Assembly: GCF_900112815.1 (NCBI RefSeq)
Contig: NZ_FOND01000003.1
Span: 186,001 to 250,000 of the forward strand
DNA length: 64,000 bases
Direction: 5' to 3'
Source: Blastococcus tunisiensis
Lineage (GTDB): Bacteria; Actinomycetota; Actinomycetes; Mycobacteriales; Geodermatophilaceae
In this document: piece by piece, positions 19,957 to 57,786 of the stretch
How positions within the stretch are numbered: position 1 is the first letter of the stretch
Layout of the letters: every line of letters starts with the position of its first letter
Notes under the pieces: model-generated
Database searches by the model: none
What the model saw: the letters and a program-made list of their open reading frames with translations, nothing else
Told to the model about the DNA's origin: nothing
Translations under genes and position numbers: made by a program

Positions 19957-19986
19957 GACACTGGTCGGCGAGCCGTGATCCGGCTC

Positions 19987-20036
19987 CCGGACGAGGGGTG
20001 CCGTACCCGGAGTGCGACAAGACGGCGCCGGGGAGG
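19987..20036 (+). promoter_or_regulatory. Guanidine-III riboswitch (ykkC-III) with ribosome-binding site
   Basis: From CCGGACGAGG (19987) through CCGTACCCGG and CGACAAGACGGCGCC (to 20029) the sequence follows the conserved guanidine-III aptamer nearly base for base, including the ACGAGG, CCGTACCCGG and GACAAGACGGCGC segments that form its pseudoknot. The ribosome-binding site GGGGAGG (20030-20036) follows directly, with the GTG of the SMR gene at 20042. Guanidine binding is expected to expose this site and turn on translation of the exporter. Confidence 0.9.
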
Positions 20037-22648: not shown

Positions 22649-23656
<1,008 letters not shown>

Positions 23657-24372: not shown

Positions 24373-24468
24373 GGAGGCGTCAGGGTGTCTGGTGACCCCC
24401 GCGGCCTCTAAAGCCGACGTGGCCGAGCATCTCGGCCAGGCGGGTTCGATTCCCGTCCGCCTCCGCCA
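24373..24468 (+). tRNA. selC: tRNA-Sec with anticodon CUA (reads UAG)
   Basis: The 96-base gene folds as a bacterial selenocysteine tRNA. The acceptor begins GGAGGCG and pairs with CGCCTCC, followed by discriminator G (24465) and encoded CCA (24466-24468). The T stem GCGGG/CCCGT has loop TTCGATT. Acceptor plus T stem give a helix of about 13 bp, allowing one weak junction pair. The long D stem closes a TGGT loop with one internal mismatch. The variable arm TGGCCGAG/CTCGGCCA is 8 bp with a 3-base loop. The anticodon stem CGGC/GCCG closes the seven-base loop CTCTAAA, so bases 24408-24410 are anticodon CUA, not UCA. It lies 83 bases upstream of selA. A possible -10 box TACAGT is at 24360-24365. 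Confidence 0.93.
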
Positions 24469-24551: not shown

Positions 24552-25862
24552 ATGAGCGCCGATCCACGCCGGCAGGTGCCGCGCACCGACACCCTGCTCG
24601 CCGACCCCCGGCTCGCCGCGGCCGGCGAGCGGCTGGGCCGCGGCCTGGTGAAGGGCGCCGTGCAGCGGGTGCAGCAGCGGATCCGGGACGGCGAGGTCGC
24701 ACCCCCGCAGGCGGTCGAGGCGGTGCTCGCCTCGCTGCCCGGCACGGCGAGCAGCCTCCAGCCGGTGCTCAACGTGACCGGCGTCCTCGTGCACACCAAC
24801 CTGGGCCGCTCCCCGCTGTCGCCGGCCGCCGTCGACGCGATCACCGCGGCCGCGGGGACCACCGATGTCGAGCTCGACCTGTCCACGGGGCGCCGTGGCC
24901 CGCGGGGAGAGGCGGCCATCGCCGCGCTGCTGGCCGCGGTCCCCGCCGCCGAGGCCGCGATCGTCGTCAACAACTGCGCGGCGGCGCTGGCCCTGGTCGC
25001 CACCGCGCTCGGGCAGGACCGCGAGCTGGTGCTGGCCCGCGGCGAGCTGGTCGAGATCGGTGACGGGTTCCGCATCCCCGAGCTGCTGACCGCCACCGGC
25101 GCCCGGCTGCGCGAGGTGGGCACGACGAACCGGGTCACGCTCGCCGACTACCGGGGGGCGCTCGGCCCGGAGACCGGCGCGGTGCTCAAGGTGCACCCCT
25201 CGAACTTCGTCGTCCGCGGCTTCACCCGGCAGGTCGAGGTCGGCGAACTAGCAGCGGCACTGGCCGGCACGGGCACCCCGCTGGTGGCCGACGTCGGGTC
25301 CGGGCTGCTCCGGCCCCACCCGCTGCTGCCCGAGGAGCCCGACCTGCAGTCCACGCTCGCGGCCGGCGCCGACGTCGTCCTCGCCAGCGGGGACAAGCTG
25401 CTCGGCGGCCCGCAGGCGGGGCTGGTCCTGGGCCGCGCCGACCTCGTGCAGCGGCTGCGCCGGCACCCGCTCTACCGCGCGCTGCGGGTGGACAAGACCA
25501 CCCTCGCCGCGCTGGAGGCGACGCTGCGCGGCCCGCTGCCGCCGGTGCAGGAGATGCTCGCCGCGGACCTCGACGGGCTCCGGGCCCGGGCGGGGGCCCT
25601 CGCCGCGCGGCTCACCGAGGCCGGCCTCGACGCCCGGGCCGTCGACGCGGACGCGCGCGTGGGCGGGGGAGGGGCGCCCGAGCACCCGCTGCCGAGCGCG
25701 GCGGTCTCGCTGCCGGGGTCCTTCGCCGAGCTGCTGCGCCGCGGCACCCCGCCGGTGGTCGGCTACGTCGAGGGCGACCGCACCCTGCTGAACCTGCGCA
25801 GCCTCCCGACGTCCGCCGATGAGCAGCTCGCCGGCGCCGTCCTGGCCGCCGCGGCGCGATGA
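24552..25862 (+). CDS. selA: L-seryl-tRNA(Sec) selenium transferase
   Basis: SelA converts seryl-tRNA-Sec to selenocysteinyl-tRNA-Sec using pyridoxal phosphate and selenophosphate. The 436-residue protein has NVTGVLVHTNLGRSPLS, the VNNCAAALALV segment and the PLP-lysine motif ASGDKLLGGPQAG, with Lys near residue 282. All match the family. It follows selC closely and overlaps selB by four bases (ATGA), so selC-selA-selB is one locus. Nothing in SelA itself depends on the anticodon, since SelA recognises the tRNA body. Confidence 0.97.
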   Translation: MSADPRRQVPRTDTLLADPRLAAAGERLGRGLVKGAVQRVQQRIRDGEVAPPQAVEAVLASLPGTASSLQPVLNVTGVLVHTNLGRSPLSPAAVDAITAAAGTTDVELDLSTGRRGPRGEAAIAALLAAVPAAEAAIVVNNCAAALALVATALGQDRELVLARGELVEIGDGFRIPELLTATGARLREVGTTNRVTLADYRGALGPETGAVLKVHPSNFVVRGFTRQVEVGELAAALAGTGTPLVADVGSGLLRPHPLLPEEPDLQSTLAAGADVVLASGDKLLGGPQAGLVLGRADLVQRLRRHPLYRALRVDKTTLAALEATLRGPLPPVQEMLAADLDGLRARAGALAARLTEAGLDARAVDADARVGGGGAPEHPLPSAAVSLPGSFAELLRRGTPPVVGYVEGDRTLLNLRSLPTSADEQLAGAVLAAAAR

Positions 25863-27640
25863 CGTCCACCGACGGGGCCCCGGACGTCAACCACATGGAC
25901 GTCGTCGCGACGGCCGGGCACGTGGACCACGGCAAGTCGGCCCTGGTCCGTGCGCTGACCGGGATGGAGCCCGACCGCTGGGCGGAGGAGCGGCGCCGCG
26001 GGCTGACCATCGACCTGGGTTTCGCCTGGACGACGCTGCGCTCCGGCCGCCGGGTGGCGGTCGTCGACGTGCCCGGGCACGAGAAGTTCGTGGGCAACAT
26101 GCTGGCCGGGGTGGGCCCGGTGCCCGCGGCGCTGCTGGTGGTGGCCGCCGACGACGGCTGGTCGGCGCAGACCGCCGAGCACGTCGCGGTGCTCGACGCG
26201 CTCGGCGTCCAGCACGCGCTGGTCGCGGTGACCAAGTCCGACCTGGCCGACCCGGCACCCGTCGTCTCCGACGTCCGCCGGCGGCTCGCCGACACCTCGA
26301 TGGGCGTGGTGCCCGCCGTGCCGGTGAGCTCCGTGACCGGGGACGGGGTCGCCGAGCTCGGGGTCGCCCTCGAGGCGCTGCTGTCCGAGCTCCCACCGGC
26401 GGACCCGGACGCACCGGTCCGGCTGTGGATCGACCGCGCCTTCACCATCCGGGGGGCCGGCACGGTCGTCACCGGGACCCTCGCCGCCGGCAGCGTGGCG
26501 GCCGGTGACCGGTTCCTGCTCGGGGAGCGTGAGGTGGTGGTCCGCCGGGTGCAGTCGCTCGGGGCGCCGGTGGAGCACGCGAGCGCGACCGCCCGGGTGG
26601 CCCTGAACCTCCGGGACGTCGCGGTGGAGGACCTCTCGCGCGGCGACGTGCTGCTCACGCCGGGAGCCTTCCGGGTCACCGACGTGGTCGACGTGACGCT
26701 CGACGCCGAGCCGGGGGAGCGGCTGCCGGCCGAGCCGGTGGTGCACATCGGCTCGGCGACGGTCGGCGCCCGGCTGCGGCCCCTGGAGGGAGCGGCGGTG
26801 CGGCTCCGTCTGGCCGGCGCCCTGCCGCTGCGGGTCGGCGACCGGGTGCTGCTGCGCGATCCGGGGACCCGGCGGGTGCTCGGGGCCGACGTCCGCGACG
26901 TCGACCCGCCGGAGCTGCGGCGCCGGGGTGCCGCCCGGGCGCGGGCGGCGGACCTGGTCGCCCAGCCCGGCGGCGCCGCGGGTGCCGCGGTGGATCTGGC
27001 GCGCCGCCGGATCGTCCGGGTCGAGGACTTCACGGCCATGGGCTGGCCGGTGCCGGAGGGCGCCACCGTCCACGGGCCCTGGCTGCTGGCGGCCGGGCTG
27101 CGGGACGACCTCGTCGCCCGGGTGCCCGACGTCGTCGCCCGCTACCGGCGGCTGCGGCCGCTGGAACCGGGCCCGCCGGTCGAGGTGGTGCGCCGGGCCC
27201 TGGACCTGCCCGACGCGGACCTGGTGGCCGCCGTGGTCCGGCCGCCGCTGGAGCTGCGCGGGGGCCGGGTCGTCGACGGGACCGCCGCGCTGCCGCCGGA
27301 GGTGCAGCGCGCCGTCGAGGAGGTCCGGGCCCGGCTGGCCCAGGACCCGTTCGCGGCACCCGAGGCGCCGGACCTGGTCGCGGCCGGTCTCGGCGTCCGG
27401 GAGCTGGCGGCCGCCGTTCGCAGCGGCCAGCTCGTGCGGATCGCCGACGGCGTGTACCTCGCGCCCGGGATCGCCGAGGTGGCCAGGGCCCGCCTGGCGG
27501 ACGTGCCGCAGCCGTTCACGCTCAGCCAGGCCCGGCAGGCGTGGGGCACCACCCGGCGCGTCGCCGTCCCCCTGGCGGAGTGGCTGGACGCCCAGGGCGT
27601 CACCGTCCGCCTCCCGGACAACACCCGCCGGCTGGCCTGA
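25859..27640 (+). CDS. selB: Selenocysteine-specific elongation factor SelB
   Basis: SelB is the GTPase that carries Sec-tRNA to the ribosome and binds the mRNA SECIS hairpin. The 593-residue protein has P-loop GHVDHGKS (residues 20-27), DVPGHEKFVGNM, and TKSDLAD for guanine recognition. EF-Tu-like beta-barrel domains follow, then a C-terminal run of winged-helix domains (about residues 380-593, ending VPLAEWLDAQGVTVRLPDNTRRLA) that bind SECIS RNA. Length is normal for bacteria. SelB does not read the codon, so it can serve a UAG-decoding tRNA. Confidence 0.96.
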   Translation: MTSTDGAPDVNHMDVVATAGHVDHGKSALVRALTGMEPDRWAEERRRGLTIDLGFAWTTLRSGRRVAVVDVPGHEKFVGNMLAGVGPVPAALLVVAADDGWSAQTAEHVAVLDALGVQHALVAVTKSDLADPAPVVSDVRRRLADTSMGVVPAVPVSSVTGDGVAELGVALEALLSELPPADPDAPVRLWIDRAFTIRGAGTVVTGTLAAGSVAAGDRFLLGEREVVVRRVQSLGAPVEHASATARVALNLRDVAVEDLSRGDVLLTPGAFRVTDVVDVTLDAEPGERLPAEPVVHIGSATVGARLRPLEGAAVRLRLAGALPLRVGDRVLLRDPGTRRVLGADVRDVDPPELRRRGAARARAADLVAQPGGAAGAAVDLARRRIVRVEDFTAMGWPVPEGATVHGPWLLAAGLRDDLVARVPDVVARYRRLRPLEPGPPVEVVRRALDLPDADLVAAVVRPPLELRGGRVVDGTAALPPEVQRAVEEVRARLAQDPFAAPEAPDLVAAGLGVRELAAAVRSGQLVRIADGVYLAPGIAEVARARLADVPQPFTLSQARQAWGTTRRVAVPLAEWLDAQGVTVRLPDNTRRLA

Positions 27641-49772: not shown

Positions 49773-49824
49773 CGCGCGGCAAGTCACAACACGGCCTCGA
49801 TTGCAGCCGCCCACGGCAAACTCT

Positions 49825-49838
49825 TGACACCGATGTCA
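49825..49838. promoter_or_regulatory. Candidate TetR operator upstream of livG
   Basis: TGACA-CCGA-TGTCA is a perfect 5-4-5 inverted repeat about 50 bases before the livG start at 49890. It is the best of three similar sites in this region and stands before the transporter and ligase operon. Confidence 0.6.
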
Positions 49839-49889
49839 GTTATGCAACAGCCTCCTGTGAGCCACCTCACCCGACAGGGGGATCGCTTC

Positions 49890-50705
49890 GTGCAGCCAGC
49901 AACCGCCAGCCAGCCGACAGTCGCTGATCGCGTACCGTCGCCCGCTCTAAGCGCCGAGGGTCTGTCGCTCTCCTTCGGCGGCGTGAAGGCCCTGCAGGAC
50001 GTCGCGATGGAGCTCCGCAAGAGCGAGCTGCTCGCCGTCATCGGGCCGAACGGCGCGGGGAAGACGTCGCTCCTGAACTGCCTGACCGGGTTCTACCGGC
50101 CTCAGCAGGGCCGGGTCGTGCTCGACGGCGACAAGGTGATCTCAGGGCTGCCGACGCACAAGATCGCGCGGCTCGGCGTGAGCCGAACGTTCCAGGGGAC
50201 GCACCTGTTCACCGGGATGACGGTGCTCGACAACATCATGATCGGCCGCTACTCCCACATGCGGACCAACCTGGCGCAGGCCTTCCTCTACGTGCCGTGG
50301 ACGCGGCGCGAGGAGGTGCAGCACCGGGAGTTCGTCGAGGACATCATCGACTTCCTCGAAATCACCACGGTGCGCAAGCGGGTCGTCGGTGAGCTCGGCT
50401 ACGGCCTGCGCAAGCGGGTCGACCTCGCCCGCGCGCTGGCGATGGAGCCGTCGGTCCTCCTGATGGACGAGCCGATGGCCGGGATGAATCTGGAGGAGAA
50501 GGAGGACCTTGCCCGATTCATCCTCGACGTCCGCGAGGCGCGCGGCATCCCCATCGTCATCGTCGAGCACGACATGGCCGTGGTCATGGACATCGCCGAC
50601 CGGATCGTCGTCCTCGACTTCGGTCGCAAGATCAGCGAGGGCACGCCCGCCGAGGTCAGCGGCGACCCGGTCGTCATCAAGGCCTACCTCGGGGAGGCGC
50701 ATTGA
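49890..50705 (+). CDS. livG: Branched-chain-amino-acid-type ABC transporter ATP-binding protein
   Basis: The 271-residue LivG-type ATPase has Walker A GPNGAGKTS, YGLRKRVDLARALA in place of the signature and LLMDEPMAGMN as Walker B. The GTG at 49890 has a GGGGGA ribosome-binding site; in-frame starts at 49842 and 49857 lack one and lie close to the operator. It starts an operon with an acyl-CoA ligase, livH, livM, the binding protein and livF. Liv-type transporters carry amino acids, amides, urea or aromatic acids. Confidence 0.88.
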   Translation: MQPATASQPTVADRVPSPALSAEGLSLSFGGVKALQDVAMELRKSELLAVIGPNGAGKTSLLNCLTGFYRPQQGRVVLDGDKVISGLPTHKIARLGVSRTFQGTHLFTGMTVLDNIMIGRYSHMRTNLAQAFLYVPWTRREEVQHREFVEDIIDFLEITTVRKRVVGELGYGLRKRVDLARALAMEPSVLLMDEPMAGMNLEEKEDLARFILDVREARGIPIVIVEHDMAVVMDIADRIVVLDFGRKISEGTPAEVSGDPVVIKAYLGEAH

Positions 50706-52702
50706 GCGCGCACGGCTCGACCGCTACGGCCCCCGCCGCCGGGACCGGGACCGGCGCCGAGGTCCGCACCCTGCCGCAGATCCTGCTCGACCAGGCGCGT
50801 CGTCGACCGGCGGACATCGCGCAGCGCGACAAGGACTTCGGGCTGTGGCGCCCCCACACGTGGACCGACGTCGTCACCCAGGTCCGGAACTTCGCGCTCG
50901 GCCTTCGGGAACTGGGGCTCCAGCGGGGAGAGACCGTCGGGATCATCGGGGAGAACGAGGTCGAGCACTTCTGGACCGAGTACGCGGTCCAAGGGCTCGG
51001 CGGCAAGGTCGTCTCGATGTACCCCGACCTCACGCCGGACGAGGCCAAGTTCCTGCTCGAGGACTCCGAGGCCGTCGTCGTGGTCGCGGAGGACCAGGAG
51101 CAGGTGGACAAGATCCTCGAGATCCTCGAGCAGCTGCCCAAGGTGCGAGCGGTCGTCTACTGGGACGACCGCGGCATGTGGTCCTACTCCGACACCCGGC
51201 TCAAGACGTTCCAGGAGGTCCAGGCCGCGGGGGCGACGGTCCACCAGGCCCAGCCCGAGCTCTTCGAGAGCATCGTCGGCCAAGGCACTCCCGACGACGT
51301 CGCCGTCCTGAGCTACACGTCCGGCACCACGGGCCGCCCGAAGGGCGTCGTGACCACCCACCGGATGCTGCTGGACAACGCCTACCGGGTGCTCGACGCC
51401 CACTCGCTCAAGCCCGGGAGCGAGTACCTCAGCTACATCTCCCCGGCGTGGGCCACCGAGCAGATCTTCGGCGTCACGATGGGGTTGGTCGTACCTTTCG
51501 TCGTCAACTTCCCGGAGGAGCCGGAGACCGTCCGGGACAACATCCGCGAGTTGGCCGTCGACGCCCTGGTCTTCAGCCCCCGGCAGTGGGAGAGCCTCGC
51601 CGCCTCCGTGCAGGGGAAGATGGCCGAGGCCGGCCGGGTGCGCCGGGCGGTCTATGGCTGGGGCCTCAAGGCCGGGCACGCCTACAAGGTCGCCCGCCTC
51701 GACGGTAGGCAACCCGGCCTGATGGCGCGGCTGAACCACGCGCTCGCCCGCTGGGTCGTGCTCCGCCCCGTCTTGGACCAGCTGGGCCTGATCAAGGCCC
51801 ACTTCGCCGTCTCCGGCGGTTCCTCCATGGCGCCGGACGTCTTCCGCTTCTTCCACGCCCTGGGCGTCCCCCTGCGCAACATCTACGGCACCAGTGAGAT
51901 GGGGTTGTTCACTCTGCACCAAGGCGACGCCTACAACGTGGAGACCGTCGGCCACTGGATGAAGACGCGGCCCACGGTCGGGCCGCCGCTGGAATCGCGC
52001 ATCAGCGAGGAAGGCGAGCTTCAGGTGCGCGGCGGAGCCGGCTTCTCCGGCTACTACAACCAGCCGGAGAAGAGTGCCGCGAAGTACACGCCGGACGGCT
52101 GGTTCATGACCGGCGACGCGGTTACCGAGACCGACGACGGCGAACTGGTCTTCCTCGAGCGGCTTGAGGACATGCGGCGGCTGGCCACCGGCGTGCCGTT
52201 CCCGCCCCAGTTCATCGAGATCCGGCTCCGATTCAGTCCCTACATCCGGGACGTCATGGTGCTGGGTGACGAGACCCGCGACTTCGTGGCGGCGCTGGTC
52301 AACATCGACAGCGAGATGATCGGCAACTGGGCCGAGGAGCGGGGTATCGGCTACACGACCTTCCAGGACCTCTCCCAGAAACCGCAGGTCCGGGAACTGA
52401 TCCGTCGCGAGATCGACCGGATCACCGAGCTGCTGCCCGAGGGAAGTCGAGTACGGCGCTTCATCAACCTGCCCAAGGAACTCGACGCCGACGAGGGCGA
52501 GTTGACCCGTACCCGCAAGCTCCGCCGGGACTTCCTCGAAGTCCGCTACAAGACCCTCATCGACGGCATCTACGACGGGAGCTCCACCGTCGACGTCGAG
52601 ATCCCCATCACCTATCAGGACGGGCGCAAGGGCGCGCTTCGCGCGACGACCGTAGCTACCGACGTCGACCAGCCCGTTGCGGGCGGAGAGGAGGTCCGGT
52701 GA
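50702..52702 (+). CDS. AMP-dependent long-chain-type acyl-CoA synthetase
   Basis: The 666-residue adenylate-forming ligase has the P-loop SYTSGTTGRPKGVV, the A5 motif NIYGTSEMG and TPDGWFMTGDAV. It resembles the long-chain FadD15-like group. It would activate a carboxylic acid with ATP and CoA. The TTG at 50702 overlaps the livG stop, and its stop overlaps livH. Its place between transporter genes suggests the imported compound, or a product, is activated as a CoA ester. Confidence 0.88.
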   Translation: MSAHGSTATAPAAGTGTGAEVRTLPQILLDQARRRPADIAQRDKDFGLWRPHTWTDVVTQVRNFALGLRELGLQRGETVGIIGENEVEHFWTEYAVQGLGGKVVSMYPDLTPDEAKFLLEDSEAVVVVAEDQEQVDKILEILEQLPKVRAVVYWDDRGMWSYSDTRLKTFQEVQAAGATVHQAQPELFESIVGQGTPDDVAVLSYTSGTTGRPKGVVTTHRMLLDNAYRVLDAHSLKPGSEYLSYISPAWATEQIFGVTMGLVVPFVVNFPEEPETVRDNIRELAVDALVFSPRQWESLAASVQGKMAEAGRVRRAVYGWGLKAGHAYKVARLDGRQPGLMARLNHALARWVVLRPVLDQLGLIKAHFAVSGGSSMAPDVFRFFHALGVPLRNIYGTSEMGLFTLHQGDAYNVETVGHWMKTRPTVGPPLESRISEEGELQVRGGAGFSGYYNQPEKSAAKYTPDGWFMTGDAVTETDDGELVFLERLEDMRRLATGVPFPPQFIEIRLRFSPYIRDVMVLGDETRDFVAALVNIDSEMIGNWAEERGIGYTTFQDLSQKPQVRELIRREIDRITELLPEGSRVRRFINLPKELDADEGELTRTRKLRRDFLEVRYKTLIDGIYDGSSTVDVEIPITYQDGRKGALRATTVATDVDQPVAGGEEVR

Positions 52703-53583
52703 TCCAGCTCATCGAGTACGCCCTGAACGGGGCGCTGCTCGGCCTGCTGTACGCCCTCATCGCCATGGGCTTTGTGGTGATCTACCGGGCGTCGAAGGTC
52801 TTCAACTTCGCCCAGGGCGAGCTGGTCGTCGTCGGTGCATTCCTGGTCTGGTTCTTCACCCTCGACCTCGGGCTACCGCTCTACGTCGGTTTCGCGCTCG
52901 CTCTCATCGGAGCCGCGATCTTCGGACTCATCATCGAGCCGCTCCTGTTCCGGCGCCTGGTGGGCCAGTCGACCTTCTCGATGGTCATGGTGACGATCGG
53001 GCTGCTGATCCTCCTGCGCGGGCTGGTACTCGTAATCTTCGGGCCTTCGGTCCGGCCCTTCCCCGACCTCATCTCCACCGCGCCCATCACCTTCGGGGAC
53101 ATCACGCTGAACCGCGGACTCGCCTACGGTGGCATCTTCACGATCCTGCTGGCGATCGGCGTCTCGCTGTACTTCTCCCGGACGAGGCCGGGTCTGCGGA
53201 TGACCGTGGTCGCCGAGGACCACCAGATCGCCCAGTCCATGGGGATCTCGGTCCGACGTTCCATCGCCTACGCGTGGGGCATGGGCATGGTCCTGTCGAC
53301 GCTGGGCGCCGTCTTCTACCTGAACGGAAAGTCGGTCACTTTCCTGGTCGCCGAGATCGGTTTCGCGGCCCTGCCGGTCGCGCTGCTGGCCGGCCTCGAG
53401 TCGGTGGGTGGACTGATCCCGGCCGGAATCATCGTCGGAGTGGCCCAGGGCCTCGCGGCCGGCTACATCGACCCCGTCGTCGGCGGAAGTTTCTCCGCCG
53501 TCTTCCCGTATCTGGTCATGGTGATAATTCTGTTTCTTCGGCCGTCGGGTCTGTTCGGCTGGCGAATTGTCGAGAGGGTTTAG
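52699..53583 (+). CDS. livH: Branched-chain-amino-acid-type ABC transporter permease
   Basis: The 294-residue membrane protein has about eight helices and the LivH pattern: NGALLGLLYALIAMGFVVIYRA at the start and a later FAALPVALLAGLESVGGLIPAGI loop. It forms half of the channel. GTG at 52699 overlaps the ligase stop. It ends at UAG (53581-53583), directly followed by the livM ATG, where UAG must act as a normal stop. Confidence 0.92.
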   Translation: MIQLIEYALNGALLGLLYALIAMGFVVIYRASKVFNFAQGELVVVGAFLVWFFTLDLGLPLYVGFALALIGAAIFGLIIEPLLFRRLVGQSTFSMVMVTIGLLILLRGLVLVIFGPSVRPFPDLISTAPITFGDITLNRGLAYGGIFTILLAIGVSLYFSRTRPGLRMTVVAEDHQIAQSMGISVRRSIAYAWGMGMVLSTLGAVFYLNGKSVTFLVAEIGFAALPVALLAGLESVGGLIPAGIIVGVAQGLAAGYIDPVVGGSFSAVFPYLVMVIILFLRPSGLFGWRIVERV

Positions 53584-54642
53584 ATGTCCATGCAACCGGC
53601 GGGCGTCTTCGCCCAGAGCTACGTACGGGACATGGCCATCTTCCGGACGTGGAAGCAGGGGGCGGCCCTCGGCTTCTTCGTGCTGGCGCTGCTCCTCGTC
53701 CCCACCATCCTGGGCCCGCGCTACGTCGCCATCGCCAACATCATGTTGATCACCTCGGTGGTGGTGCTGGGCCTGCAGATCACCACGGGCCTGGCCGGGC
53801 AGGTGAACCTCGGGCAGGCCGCATTCATGGGAATGGGGGCCTACACCGCTGCCGCGCTGTCATCGGGGCAGCAGTGGCCCTTCCTGGTGACGGTTCCGCT
53901 CGCGGGCCTCGTCGCGGCACTGTTCGGCGCCATCTTCGGGCTGGCGGCGGTCCGGATCCGGGGCTTCTACCTCGCCCTAACGACGATCGCGGCGCAGTTC
54001 ATCTTCGTGTTCGCGATCCTGAACCTGCCGGCGTCCTGGACCGGCGCGGCCCAGGGACTCCGGGTGGAGACCGCCTCGGTCTTCGGATTCGTGTTCAACA
54101 CCGACAACCGGATGTACTTCTTGATCCTGGCAATCACCGCGATCATGACCGTGGGGGCCTACGGCATCGCCCGAAGCCGGCACGGGCGCGCCTTTGTCGC
54201 CGTCCGTGACGACGACCTCGCGGCCGGCTTCACGGGTGTGAACGTCGTGCGGGCCAAAGCGACGGCCTTCTTCGTCGGTGCCTTCTACGCGGGCGTCGGC
54301 GGTGCTCTGTGGGCGTACTACATCCGATTCGTGGCAGTCGACCAGTTCAGCCTCTTCAACTCGGTCTACTACATGGGAATGGTCATCGTCGGTGGTCTGG
54401 GCTCCATGGCGGGAGCGTTCGTCGGCGTGTTCCTGATCCGGGCCGCTCAGGAAATTCTCACCTCGGTCGGGCCATCGGTCGCCGACATCTTCCCGGCGCT
54501 GGGCAGCAGCGTCGTGTTCGCCAGCGTCAACATCATCCTAGGAGCCGCGATCGCGCTCATGCTCATCCTCGAACCGCGAGGCGTGATGCACCGGTTCAAC
54601 ATCCTCAAACGTGCCTTCAGACTCTGGCCATATCCGCATTGA
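53584..54642 (+). CDS. livM: Branched-chain-amino-acid-type ABC transporter permease
   Basis: The 352-residue protein has about ten helices and the LivM hallmark GLAGQVNLGQAAFMGMGAYT near residue 74, then YYMGMVIVGGLGSMAGAFVG. It pairs with LivH. ATG at 53584 immediately follows the livH stop. Codon use here is slightly less GC-rich than in the housekeeping half of the window, consistent with an accessory origin. Confidence 0.92.
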   Translation: MSMQPAGVFAQSYVRDMAIFRTWKQGAALGFFVLALLLVPTILGPRYVAIANIMLITSVVVLGLQITTGLAGQVNLGQAAFMGMGAYTAAALSSGQQWPFLVTVPLAGLVAALFGAIFGLAAVRIRGFYLALTTIAAQFIFVFAILNLPASWTGAAQGLRVETASVFGFVFNTDNRMYFLILAITAIMTVGAYGIARSRHGRAFVAVRDDDLAAGFTGVNVVRAKATAFFVGAFYAGVGGALWAYYIRFVAVDQFSLFNSVYYMGMVIVGGLGSMAGAFVGVFLIRAAQEILTSVGPSVADIFPALGSSVVFASVNIILGAAIALMLILEPRGVMHRFNILKRAFRLWPYPH

Positions 54643-54713
54643 TGGATTGTTGACCGGCCTTTTCAGCGCGATCCCATGCACGCCCCAGCGAATCTCTAGA
54701 AGTGGAGAACACA

Positions 54714-55973
54714 GTGGTCACAAGAATGAACGGCCGTGCACTCGCGGCCACGGTGGCGGCAACGACCCTGCTCACCGCCTGCGGCGGAGGGGACGAGGAC
54801 TCCGGCGGTGACGCCGGCGCGGGGGGTACGACGTACAACCAGGCCTGGCTCGTCGACTTCTCCGGCCCGTACGCCGACGTGTACAACGAGCTCCAGGCCG
54901 CCCGTGAAGCCACCAACGAGTGGTGGAACGAGACGGTCGGCAGCGAGATCGGCGTGCAGCTCGCCGGTGAGCCCTACGACCACCGCTACGACGCCGCTCA
55001 GGTAGCCAGCCTCTGGCCGGGCATCCTGTCCGAGCTCGAACCGATCATGGCCATGGGCGTCGGCGGCCCCGACGTCGCGGCGCTCCAGCAGCGACTTCCG
55101 CAGGACCAGGTCCCGCTGCTGATGAACACCGCCGGCTACGGCTATGCCTGGTCGGCGGACCAATGGGTGTTCAACCCGCGGGCCACCTACGCGCACGAGG
55201 CCACCGGGTTCGTGGACTGGTTCAAGGAGGACCGAGGCCTCGACCGGCCGGTTCGAGTCGCCATGATCTCCTCCGAGGCGGCGCCTGCCTACGTCGACAT
55301 CGTCGACGGGATGGAAGCCTTCGCCGAGGACTTCCCTGACATGGCCGAGGTCGTCGCGGTCGAGTTCGCCGACGTGCAGCCCGCCGCTCTGAACAGTCAG
55401 GTGAGCCGGATCGTCGACGCCGAGGCCGACGTGATCATCATCCAGACGAACACGACGCAGGCGGTCGTGACCAAGCAGGCACTGGAATCTCTCGGCGTCG
55501 AGATTCCGATCATGCTGAGCTCGCACAACAGCCTGCAGGCGACCGGTGCGGCCGCCGGCGGCATTGAGGAGCTGGAGGGCGACTACGAGTCGTACGGTTT
55601 CGTCGTCCCTGCTGCTCAGGAGGGCACCGCGTACGACTTCTACCAGATGCTGGTCGAGGACTACGGCCTCGAGGCGGAGTGGACCGTCCCGACTGTCCAG
55701 GGGATCGCGCACCAGCTGTACGCGAACCGCACCGTGGAGCACGCCGTGGAGATGGTGGGGGCGGAGAACCTGACCGGGCAGGCGATGTACGACGCCCTGC
55801 TCGACGTCGAACTCACCGCGGAGGACCTGTTCGAGTTCCTGCCGCCCCTCGACTGGACTGAAGAGGCGCCGTTCCCGACGTCCGGACTCACGACCAGCAT
55901 CGGCACGATCGAGGACGGGGAGTACGCGCGGGCGGAACTGGACCACGAGATCCCGGAGCTCGAGAAGTGGTAG
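54714..55973 (+). CDS. Branched-chain-amino-acid-type ABC transporter substrate-binding lipoprotein
   Basis: The 419-residue protein has a signal peptide with lipobox LLTAC and a Liv-type periplasmic binding domain (VDFSGPYADVYNELQAAREA, HSLxxxN-like LSSHNSLQATG). GTG at 54714 is chosen for the GGAG six bases upstream; GTG at 54702 is in frame but less well placed. The ligand is unknown and need not be a branched-chain amino acid. It ends at a normal UAG stop. Confidence 0.88.
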   Translation: MVTRMNGRALAATVAATTLLTACGGGDEDSGGDAGAGGTTYNQAWLVDFSGPYADVYNELQAAREATNEWWNETVGSEIGVQLAGEPYDHRYDAAQVASLWPGILSELEPIMAMGVGGPDVAALQQRLPQDQVPLLMNTAGYGYAWSADQWVFNPRATYAHEATGFVDWFKEDRGLDRPVRVAMISSEAAPAYVDIVDGMEAFAEDFPDMAEVVAVEFADVQPAALNSQVSRIVDAEADVIIIQTNTTQAVVTKQALESLGVEIPIMLSSHNSLQATGAAAGGIEELEGDYESYGFVVPAAQEGTAYDFYQMLVEDYGLEAEWTVPTVQGIAHQLYANRTVEHAVEMVGAENLTGQAMYDALLDVELTAEDLFEFLPPLDWTEEAPFPTSGLTTSIGTIEDGEYARAELDHEIPELEKW

Positions 55974-56857
55974 CAGGCCCAGGAGCACGGCCCGGGGGTG
56001 CCCTCACCGAGGGCGCCTCCGGCTCCGCGCCATCGACCGAGAGCTCCGGCGGGCCGGGTGGGTCACCTCTGCTGGAGTTGAGCAATGTCGAGGTGACCTA
56101 CAGCGGCGTGATCCTCGTTCTCAAGGGCATCAACATCATCGTGCCCGAGCGTGGCTGCGTGGCGCTCCTGGGCCCCAACGGCGCCGGCAAGAGCACCACT
56201 CTCAAGGCGGTCTCGGGGGTGCTCAAGACCGAGGAGGGCCTCGTCAGTGCGGGGCAGGTGCGGTTCGCCGGCGAGCGGATCGACACGCTCGCGGCGGAAC
56301 GGACCGTGCGCAGGGGCATCCTCCACGTGATGGAGGGCCGCAAGGTCCTCGAGCACATGACGGTCGAGCAGAACCTCGTGGCCGGTGGGCACCTCCAGCG
56401 CAGCAGGGACGCCAAGGAGTCGCTCGAGCTGACCTACGAGTACTTCCCGCGCCTGGCCGACCTGCGCGGCCGGACGTCCGGCTACCTCTCCGGCGGCGAG
56501 CAGCAGATGCTCGTCATTGGCCGCGCGCTCATGGCCAGGCCGAAGCTCATGATGATCGATGAGCCGTCACTCGGCCTGGCGCCGCTGATGGTGGAGGAGA
56601 TCTTCTCGATCCTGCACCGGCTCCGTCAGGAGGATCTGGCGCTGGTGATCGTGGAGCAGAACACCGCCGCGGCCCTGGCGCTGGCCGACTACGGGTACGT
56701 CCTGGACAACGGGCGCATCGTGCTGGACGGCACGGCGGAGAGCCTCCGGTCCAACGAGGACATCCGCGAGTTCTACTTGGGCCTCGGCGCCACGGGTGAG
56801 CGCAAGAGCTTCCGCGACATCAAGCACTACCGCCGTCGCAAGCGGTGGCTGGGGTGA
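55967..56857 (+). CDS. livF: Branched-chain-amino-acid-type ABC transporter ATP-binding protein
   Basis: The 296-residue LivF-type ATPase has Walker A GPNGAGKST, signature LSGGEQQML and Walker B LMMIDEPSLGLAP. About 35 extra N-terminal residues rich in Gly and Ser precede the domain; GTG at 55967 is the only clear start and overlaps the binding-protein gene. It completes the transporter. Its stop overlaps the start of the GrdB/PrdB-like selenoprotein gene, so that gene is in the same operon. Confidence 0.9.
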   Translation: MVAGPGARPGGALTEGASGSAPSTESSGGPGGSPLLELSNVEVTYSGVILVLKGINIIVPERGCVALLGPNGAGKSTTLKAVSGVLKTEEGLVSAGQVRFAGERIDTLAAERTVRRGILHVMEGRKVLEHMTVEQNLVAGGHLQRSRDAKESLELTYEYFPRLADLRGRTSGYLSGGEQQMLVIGRALMARPKLMMIDEPSLGLAPLMVEEIFSILHRLRQEDLALVIVEQNTAAALALADYGYVLDNGRIVLDGTAESLRSNEDIREFYLGLGATGERKSFRDIKHYRRRKRWLG

Positions 56858-57786
56858 GCGGCGACGGCGTGGACGCCGGCGAGGGCGACCCGGCCCCGGT
56901 CGACTACATCGCCCGCACGCGGGACACGTACACCAAGCTGGGCTACCGGCCCTATGCATGGGTGCACAGCGACGAGGACCCGCCCATGGCGGAGCTGTCG
57001 AAGCCGCTGTCGGAGTGCCGGCTCGGCCTCGCCTCTTCCGGAGGCGTGTACCGCGTCGGCCAGGTGGCCTTCCACTACAAGGACGACACGAGCTTCCGGG
57101 CGATCGACACCGCGGTGCCGACCTCGGAGCTCCGGGTGACCCACTTCGCGTACGACACCACTGACGCACGCCGCGATCCCAACTGCGTCCTGCCGTTGGA
57201 CCCGCTGCGGCACCTCGTGTCCCAGGGGCGGATCGGCGCGCTAGCGCCCACCGCCTTCGGTTTCATGGGCGGCATCTACTCCGCGCGCCGGGTTCGGGAG
57301 CAACTCGCTCCCGAACTCGCCCGCCACATGCTGGCCGAAGGCATCGACGCCGCCCTGCTGGTGCCCGTCTAGCCGGTGTGCCATCAGTCAGTTGGACTGA
57401 TCGCGCGTCATCTGGAAGCCGCCGGCATCCCCACGGTCACGCTCTCGAGTGCGCGGACCATCACCGCTGCCGTTCGTCCTCCACGGAGCGTGTTCGTGGA
57501 CTTCCCCCTCGGCCACACCGCGGGGCCCCCCGGCGACCCGATCGCCCAGACCGCCATCGTGGGAGCGGCGCTCGACTGCCTCGAGCGGGTACGAAGCCCA
57601 GGAACGATCATCGACCTGGACCTGGCTTGGCCCGGCGACCGTTCCTGGAAACGCGCGGACGCCGGCGAGACGCGGAAGCCACGGGACGACACGCCGCAAT
57701 ATCAGAGCGACGACGACCGTGCGGCCGCCGAGGAAGTCCACCGCGCCGGGCGCTGCCGACTCTGCCTGGGCATCGATGGACAGTGA
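56854..57786 (+). CDS. GrdB/PrdB-like selenoprotein with selenocysteine encoded by in-frame UAG
   Basis: Read through the single UAG at 57370-57372, the frame gives 310 residues matching the glycine/sarcosine/betaine/D-proline reductase selenoprotein B family end to end. The first part has MAELSKPLSECRLGLASSGG, THFAYDTTDARRDPN and GRIGALAPTAFGFMGGIY. After the UAG come PVCHQSVGLIARHLEAAGIP and VFVDFPLGHTAGPPGDPIAQ. The UAG replaces residue 173, the redox selenocysteine of the U-x-x-C-H-Q-S motif. A hairpin directly downstream fits a SECIS. GTG at 56854 overlaps the livF stop; GTG at 56845 is also possible. In this family Sec attacks a C-N or similar bond during reductive cleavage; the substrate here is unknown. 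A C-terminal CRLC pair may bind metal. Confidence 0.9.
57375..57409 (+). promoter_or_regulatory. SECIS-like hairpin immediately after the UAG Sec codon
   Basis: Upper stem ATCAGTC (57383-57389) pairs with GACTGAT (57395-57401) around loop AGTTG. Below a single C-C mismatch a lower stem joins 57375-57381 with 57403-57409 (7 pairs including three G-U). The loop starts 17 bases after the UAG and has G at its second position, within the bacterial SECIS rules I know (loop 16-37 bases after the codon, G in the first two loop bases). SelB binding is inferred. Confidence 0.75.

Follow-up and report, generated by a model that had tools for sequence, protein, structure and literature searches.

The window analyzed here, a stretch of 64,000 nucleotides from Blastococcus tunisiensis (contig NZ_FOND01000003.1, positions 186,001 to 250,000), contains a frame that reads from a GTG at 56854, overlapping the livF stop by 4 bases, to a TGA at 57784-57786 and whose sole internal stop is a TAG at codon 173 (Table 1). 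The single interruption of an otherwise continuous frame, noted in an earlier sequence-only reading, was thus confirmed, and the mechanical ORF list cuts the gene in two. The truncated product of 172 residues anticipated in that reading holds for the GTG at 56854, but the longest mechanical ORF of the first half starts at GTG 56845 and yields 175 amino acids. At the 73% G+C of the window, an open frame by itself proves little. Both halves belong to the same family, as had been proposed: searched separately against TIGR04483 (PrdB), the first half matched with an E value of 2.6e-31 (109 bits) and the second with 1.2e-9 (38 bits); with the two joined, the score was higher than for either half (163.4 bits, profile positions 17 to 230 of 238). 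This score is under the TIGR04483 equivalog cut-off of 300 bits. The protein exceeds the gathering score of PF07355 (GRDB; 39.8 versus 22 bits) and scores 52 bits with TIGR01918 (GrdB), below the cut-off of 65. Judged by these profiles, it is nearer PrdB than GrdB (163 versus 52 bits), so that the initial GrdB/PrdB-like label can be shifted toward PrdB, short of equivalog assignment. Solved structures gave no match by sequence at an E value of 0.01 and, by profile, two chance-level matches only (E values of 0.61 and 0.95).

Table 1. Features of the window that bear on the interrupted PrdB-like gene
Feature	Coordinates	Strand	Basis or remarks
Predicted PrdB-like selenoprotein gene	56854..57786	+	310 residues, Sec at 173; frame, profile matches, alignment A1, tree
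In-frame UAG, predicted Sec codon	57370..57372	+	Frame reading and aligned codon in 57 named relatives
Candidate SECIS-type hairpin, 6 nt after UAG	57379..57405	+	Covariation, RNAalifold, covariance model
Branched-chain-type ABC transporter genes and AMP-binding ligase	49824..56857	+	Directly upstream; some named by similarity and position only
selD, selenophosphate synthetase	22649..23656	-	TIGR00476, 389.4 bits (cut-off 125)
tRNA-Sec, anticodon CUA	24373..24464	+	Rfam RF01852, 69.1 bits (gathering 47); ARAGORN anticodon cta
selA, L-seryl-tRNA(Sec) selenium transferase	24552..25862	+	TIGR00474, 418.6 bits (cut-off 267.9)
selB, Sec-specific elongation factor	25859..27640	+	TIGR00475, 279.4 bits (cut-off 242.25)

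The Sec/Cys-x-x-Cys motif is present in the joined protein as UPVC. In alignment A1, the motif C/U-P-V-C-H-Q does not vary among the 32 sequences, which are the window sequence and 31 loci picked by hand from the 57 relatives that a single scan of named genomes retrieved; outside this alignment, Ile replaces Val in locus L085. The earlier reading placed the UAG at a position held by Sec or Cys in the family and called for an alignment of residue 173, which bore the proposal out: the aligned codon is TGA in 51 of the 57 loci, a Cys codon in four (TGC in three, TGT in one), TAG in one, and unreadable in L087, whose match stops before the site. The sole TAG among these loci is that of Blastococcus mobilis DSM 44272 (G027, same genus; copy on NZ_FZNO01000011.1), which shares with the window not only the codon but also identical 39-nt surroundings. 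The C that follows the UAG had been interpreted as a weak termination context. The base is indeed C, but the argument carries no weight: a conserved Pro follows the site, and C accordingly stands after the codon in every one of the 58 readable rows, in Cys copies as well; these rows comprise the window, 56 loci, and the B. mobilis gene fetched a second time. The C is thus no evidence of selected weak termination.

Codon differences between the two Blastococcus copies indicate how the region downstream of the UAG has evolved. After the UAG, 34 synonymous and 22 nonsynonymous differences were counted, and before it, from residue 76 on, 20 and 5, respectively, whereas a single change made at random would be synonymous in 27% of cases. 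Since synonymous differences exceed the random expectation, the part after the UAG is selected as protein; by this measure, it is under purifying selection. With homology on both sides, the invariant motif, and this synonymous excess, the pattern at the interruption is beyond chance as far as sequence comparison goes. The B. mobilis copy (L033, 8200 to 8240) misses one base near codon 75, which leads to an in-frame TAA, and may therefore be either a decaying gene or affected by an assembly error.

Genes for Sec synthesis and delivery are located in the same window, approximately 30 to 35 kb upstream of the PrdB-like gene. The selD frame has no internal stop, and its GGGCACK stretch carries Cys, not Sec. 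ARAGORN labels the CUA tRNA as tRNA-Pyl, whereas Rfam scores the same molecule as tRNA-Sec. In the source genome (G000, a 5.0-Mb draft with the window on contig C26), seven tRNA-Sec matches were found; besides the CUA tRNA, a single one scored above gathering (49.7 bits), and ARAGORN takes it for a tRNA-Ser. Because of this, the sole clear Sec tRNA of the genome is, by annotation, one that reads UAG. Two formate dehydrogenase (FDH) genes elsewhere in the source genome, L128 (G000:C42) and L129 (G000:C19), have a TAG within ARI-TAG-HS, which we take to be the usual Sec site of the enzyme. A crude codon-position scan for further read-through covered about 40 TAGs in the window and, judged by eye only, revealed no interrupted-looking gene besides that at 57370; a stricter version of the scan missed 57370 itself. 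The TAG at 53581 was rejected as a read-through site, as it ends livH just before livM. Elsewhere in the window, a guanidine-III riboswitch (19967-20031, 64 bits) lies just upstream of a frame for a small membrane protein, presumably resembling a guanidinium exporter.

Codon and anticodon were also compared across genomes of the Geodermatophilaceae. A PrdB-like match at an E value of 0.001 was obtained in 8 of 112 genomes of the family. Seven genes in five of them carry TAG at the Sec site (G000, G027, G029, and, twice each, G043 and G104), those of G066 and G067 carry TGA, and G087 has a short, weak match without a stop. The second match of G104 (L020) is additionally listed with a TGA inside the match range. 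A CUA tRNA-Sec is present in each of the five TAG-bearing genomes; the tRNA-Sec of G066 has the anticodon UCA, and none was found in G067. The five TAG genes beyond the two Blastococcus copies (L013, L014, L015, L020, and L021, in G029, G043, and G104) show 37 to 43% identity to the window gene and fall into three clades. More broadly, a tRNA-Sec match occurs in 108 of the 112 genomes. Among the 47 whose anticodon was read, 40, from nine genera, have CUA (one of these, G058, also UCA), and UCA alone was read in seven, all from genera g5, g6, and g7 (L099, L022, L100 to L103, and L106). FDH, sought in 22 genomes, gave 15 matches in 13 of them, all with CUA, and each of the 15 has one TAG inside, the exact position of which was checked for the two source-genome genes; the other nine genomes, all from g5 to g7, gave no FDH match. 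Judged by the anticodons, the Sec codon switch seems to be located inside this bacterial family. In a class-wide sample of 394 genomes, matches at an E value of 1e-20 were limited to the source genome and G280, the latter with 37% identity and no internal stop.

The sequence that follows the UAG folds into a 27-nt hairpin with a 3-bp lower stem, a mismatch, a 7-bp upper stem (57383-57389 pairing with 57395-57401), and a 5-nt loop (57390-57394). Among 60 Sec rows (53 close and 7 distant, 57 of them distinct), all have a G among the first two loop bases, and 542 of 600 cells are paired versus 19 to 37% when the partner strand is slid; the corresponding figure for the four Cys rows is 24 of 40 cells. 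Of the seven upper pairs, 5 to 7 are kept in the 53 close Sec copies versus 3 to 4 in the Cys copies. The distant paralogues L016, L017, and L021 also fit the hairpin poorly (3 to 4 upper pairs). Alignment A2 comprises 52 rows, namely all close ones except L043, which is similar to L041; in it, 91.7% of the cells are paired versus 20 to 36% when slid, and covariation reached 0.242 versus 0.140 in shuffled alignments, a value attained by none of 500 shuffles, with the caveat for this tool that relatedness alone can exceed shuffles. Pairs 15-31, 18-28, and 19-27 change on both sides. The number of double-change pairs (3 versus 2.6; reached by 286 of 500 shuffles) and that of further pair types (6 versus 7.4; reached by all 500) were no higher than in shuffles, and the upper stem contains two mismatches in 7 of the 52 rows. 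Part of the covariation tracks Ser/Thr and Gly/Ser changes in the protein, and synonymous Gly codons follow it as well (L068 beside L037). RNAalifold recovered the same upper stem unasked, and single-sequence folding was modestly stable (z scores of -2.5 and -1.5). A covariance model built from A2 scored the site at 51 bits in both window and genome, a value that follows by construction since the window row was included; the next-best matches reached 14.4 bits in the window (E value of 0.09) and 20.5 bits in the genome (E value of 0.24), and neither source-genome FDH gene matched. On this comparative evidence, the hairpin is conserved with compensatory changes in Sec copies and broken in Cys copies, and it represents a candidate SECIS element for SelB.

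These observations argue for a genuine selenoprotein gene in which UAG serves as the Sec codon, a conclusion that we regard as almost certain, with Sec insertion itself deduced. The UAG-programmed selenoprotein suggested at the outset is thereby supported by the CUA tRNA-Sec together with selA, selB, and selD, by the aligned codons, the covarying hairpin, and the FDH TAGs. If the UAG were instead an ordinary nonsense mutation, the locus would be a pseudogene from which the first half alone is made. The B. mobilis copy, apparently frameshifted near codon 75, fits such decay, as does the sparse distribution of the gene (8 of 112 family genomes at an E value of 0.001 and 2 of 394 class genomes at 1e-20). 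We nonetheless consider this very unlikely, because the TAG occupies a site at which relatives have TGA or Cys, is common to the window and B. mobilis, precedes a conserved hairpin and sequence under purifying selection, and has a matching CUA tRNA-Sec in the genome.

Still less credible is the insertion of a different amino acid at the UAG, whether by a suppressor tRNA or by a pyrrolysine tRNA. The ARAGORN label points in that direction, and the available part of PMC3639795 lists Geodermatophilus obscurus as a pyrrolysine tRNA candidate, among organisms not used. The Rfam tRNA-Sec match of 69 bits against a gathering score of 47, the location of the CUA tRNA directly before selA and selB, and the Sec (TGA) or Cys found at the site in relatives render this reading highly improbable. 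A sequencing or assembly error turning a Cys codon or TGA into TAG can be dismissed with similar confidence, as two genomes have the TAG within the same 39-nt surroundings, five further PrdB-like genes from three family genomes have TAG at the Sec site, and so do the two FDH genes of the source genome. Comparison across genomes thus supports the UAG-as-Sec reading in four respects: the codon itself, the decoding machinery, the hairpin, and the agreement of codon and anticodon.

Decoding of this UAG as Sec would proceed as follows. SelA would make Sec on tRNA-Sec with selenophosphate provided by SelD, and SelB would bring the Sec-tRNA-Sec (CUA) to the ribosome, guided by the hairpin 6 nt after the codon. 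The UAG at 57370-57372 would thus be read as Sec, whereas the ordinary UAG stops of livH and the binding-protein gene, both of which end in TAG, have no match to the hairpin. A PrdB-like protein is predicted, in which Sec-Pro-Val-Cys-His-Gln forms the redox motif; by analogy to PrdB, it is probably a selenol/thiol-dependent reductase of a small molecule. It may carry out a selenol-dependent reduction during the breakdown of a small compound, perhaps one that the neighboring ABC transporter brings in. The upstream gene order is kept in B. mobilis, which is the only one of the 57 loci with the full transporter order and with the ligase, livH, and binding-protein neighbors. Other neighbors of the window gene recur among these loci at low counts (livG-like, 8; two luciferase-like, 6 and 5; livF-like, 4; livM-like, 2), and clustering of the relatives' neighbors, based on mechanical frames named by eye, gave small clusters only and no conserved partner. 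A search of the source genome for PrdA yielded no match, with a control that was silent everywhere too. A role in a hydantoinase/caprolactamase-like pathway was considered and not adopted, as the downstream pair is unmatched in the 8 kb after the gene in B. mobilis.

Usage of UAG for Sec in Geodermatophilaceae, mentioned in the sequence-only reading for Geodermatophilus and Blastococcus, is documented in the available part of PMC5330540, which describes three genomes of the family with a CUA tRNA-Sec, places UAG in genes for formate dehydrogenase and the UGSC protein, for which it cites Mukai et al. 2016, and adds a UAG in AhpC of B. saxobsidens. Our gene shares with those selenoproteins the CUA tRNA-Sec, the UAG at a conserved Sec site, the hairpin, and the family of origin. 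The list in that part of the article comprises formate dehydrogenase, the UGSC-motif protein, and AhpC, without a PrdB-like gene; for this reason, the gene seems to represent a new gene family for a code variant already known. A literature search, covering titles and abstract openings among the matches listed and with most subscription papers outside its reach, retrieved no UAG-coded PrdB-like gene, and Mukai et al. 2016 or its supplement may name one. In the text available, PMC2398784 reports that the PrdB selenoprotein family is abundant in marine data (GOS: 235 copies with Sec and 110 with Cys), PMC13188914 and PMC2398784 describe the UxxC motif of PrdB, the selenoprotein subunit of D-proline reductase, and PMC13188914 and PMC9312934 include D-proline reductase among the selenoprotein families; neither Geodermatophil nor Blastococcus occurs as a term in those portions of PMC13188914 and PMC9312934. 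The window protein resembles PrdB in the Sec and Cys of UxxC and over profile positions 17-230 of 238. Unlike PrdB, it scores 163 bits against a cut-off of 300, extends some 55 C-terminal residues beyond the matched part, has no conserved adjacent partner gene among those found, and uses UAG instead of UGA. Its likeness to the GrdB family (PF07355, TIGR01918) concerns the C-terminal part, above the Pfam cut-off, but the match is limited to positions 266 to 421 of 431 and, for TIGR01918, falls short of 65 bits. With this gene, the few known natural UAG-encoded selenoproteins would be joined by a further family of redox enzymes. Genes of this kind readily escape notice, because the ORF list splits the present one and the tRNA is labeled tRNA-Pyl by ARAGORN.

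A tree of 64 rows places the two Blastococcus copies with five TGA copies from Acidimicrobiia (support of 94/85, just below the firm-support mark); the 57 rows that enclose this group otherwise carry TGA or Cys. L021 (G043, TAG) forms one clade with the TGA copies L016 and L017 (100/99), L021 being short and on a long branch. As UGA is the codon in the closest relatives from other genera, UAG is probably the derived state in the PrdB-like gene. A change from TGA to TAG takes two substitutions, via TAA or TGG. A close orthologue is found in only 2 of the 112 family genomes searched, and the codon may have arisen either by rewriting after transfer or by an ancestral switch in the family followed by losses. 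That UGA was rewritten to UAG to match the host tRNA-Sec while the SECIS was kept is a tentative proposal that we consider somewhat less probable than its negation. Since the family holds UCA genera, CUA genera, and one genome with both, the switch could be traced gene by gene, and comparison with UGA relatives, whose hairpins are intact, and Cys relatives, in which they are broken, offers a clean natural experiment on Sec codon change. A single cell might even use two Sec codons. The genome with both anticodons, G058, has two tRNA-Sec genes, CUA in L126 (G058:C11, 2997-3092) and UCA in L127 (G058:C17, 1169-1263), and one SelB above the cut-off was found in it. Two Sec codons in this one cell would be striking if true; the UCA gene lies amid ORFs that, by eye, resemble transposases.
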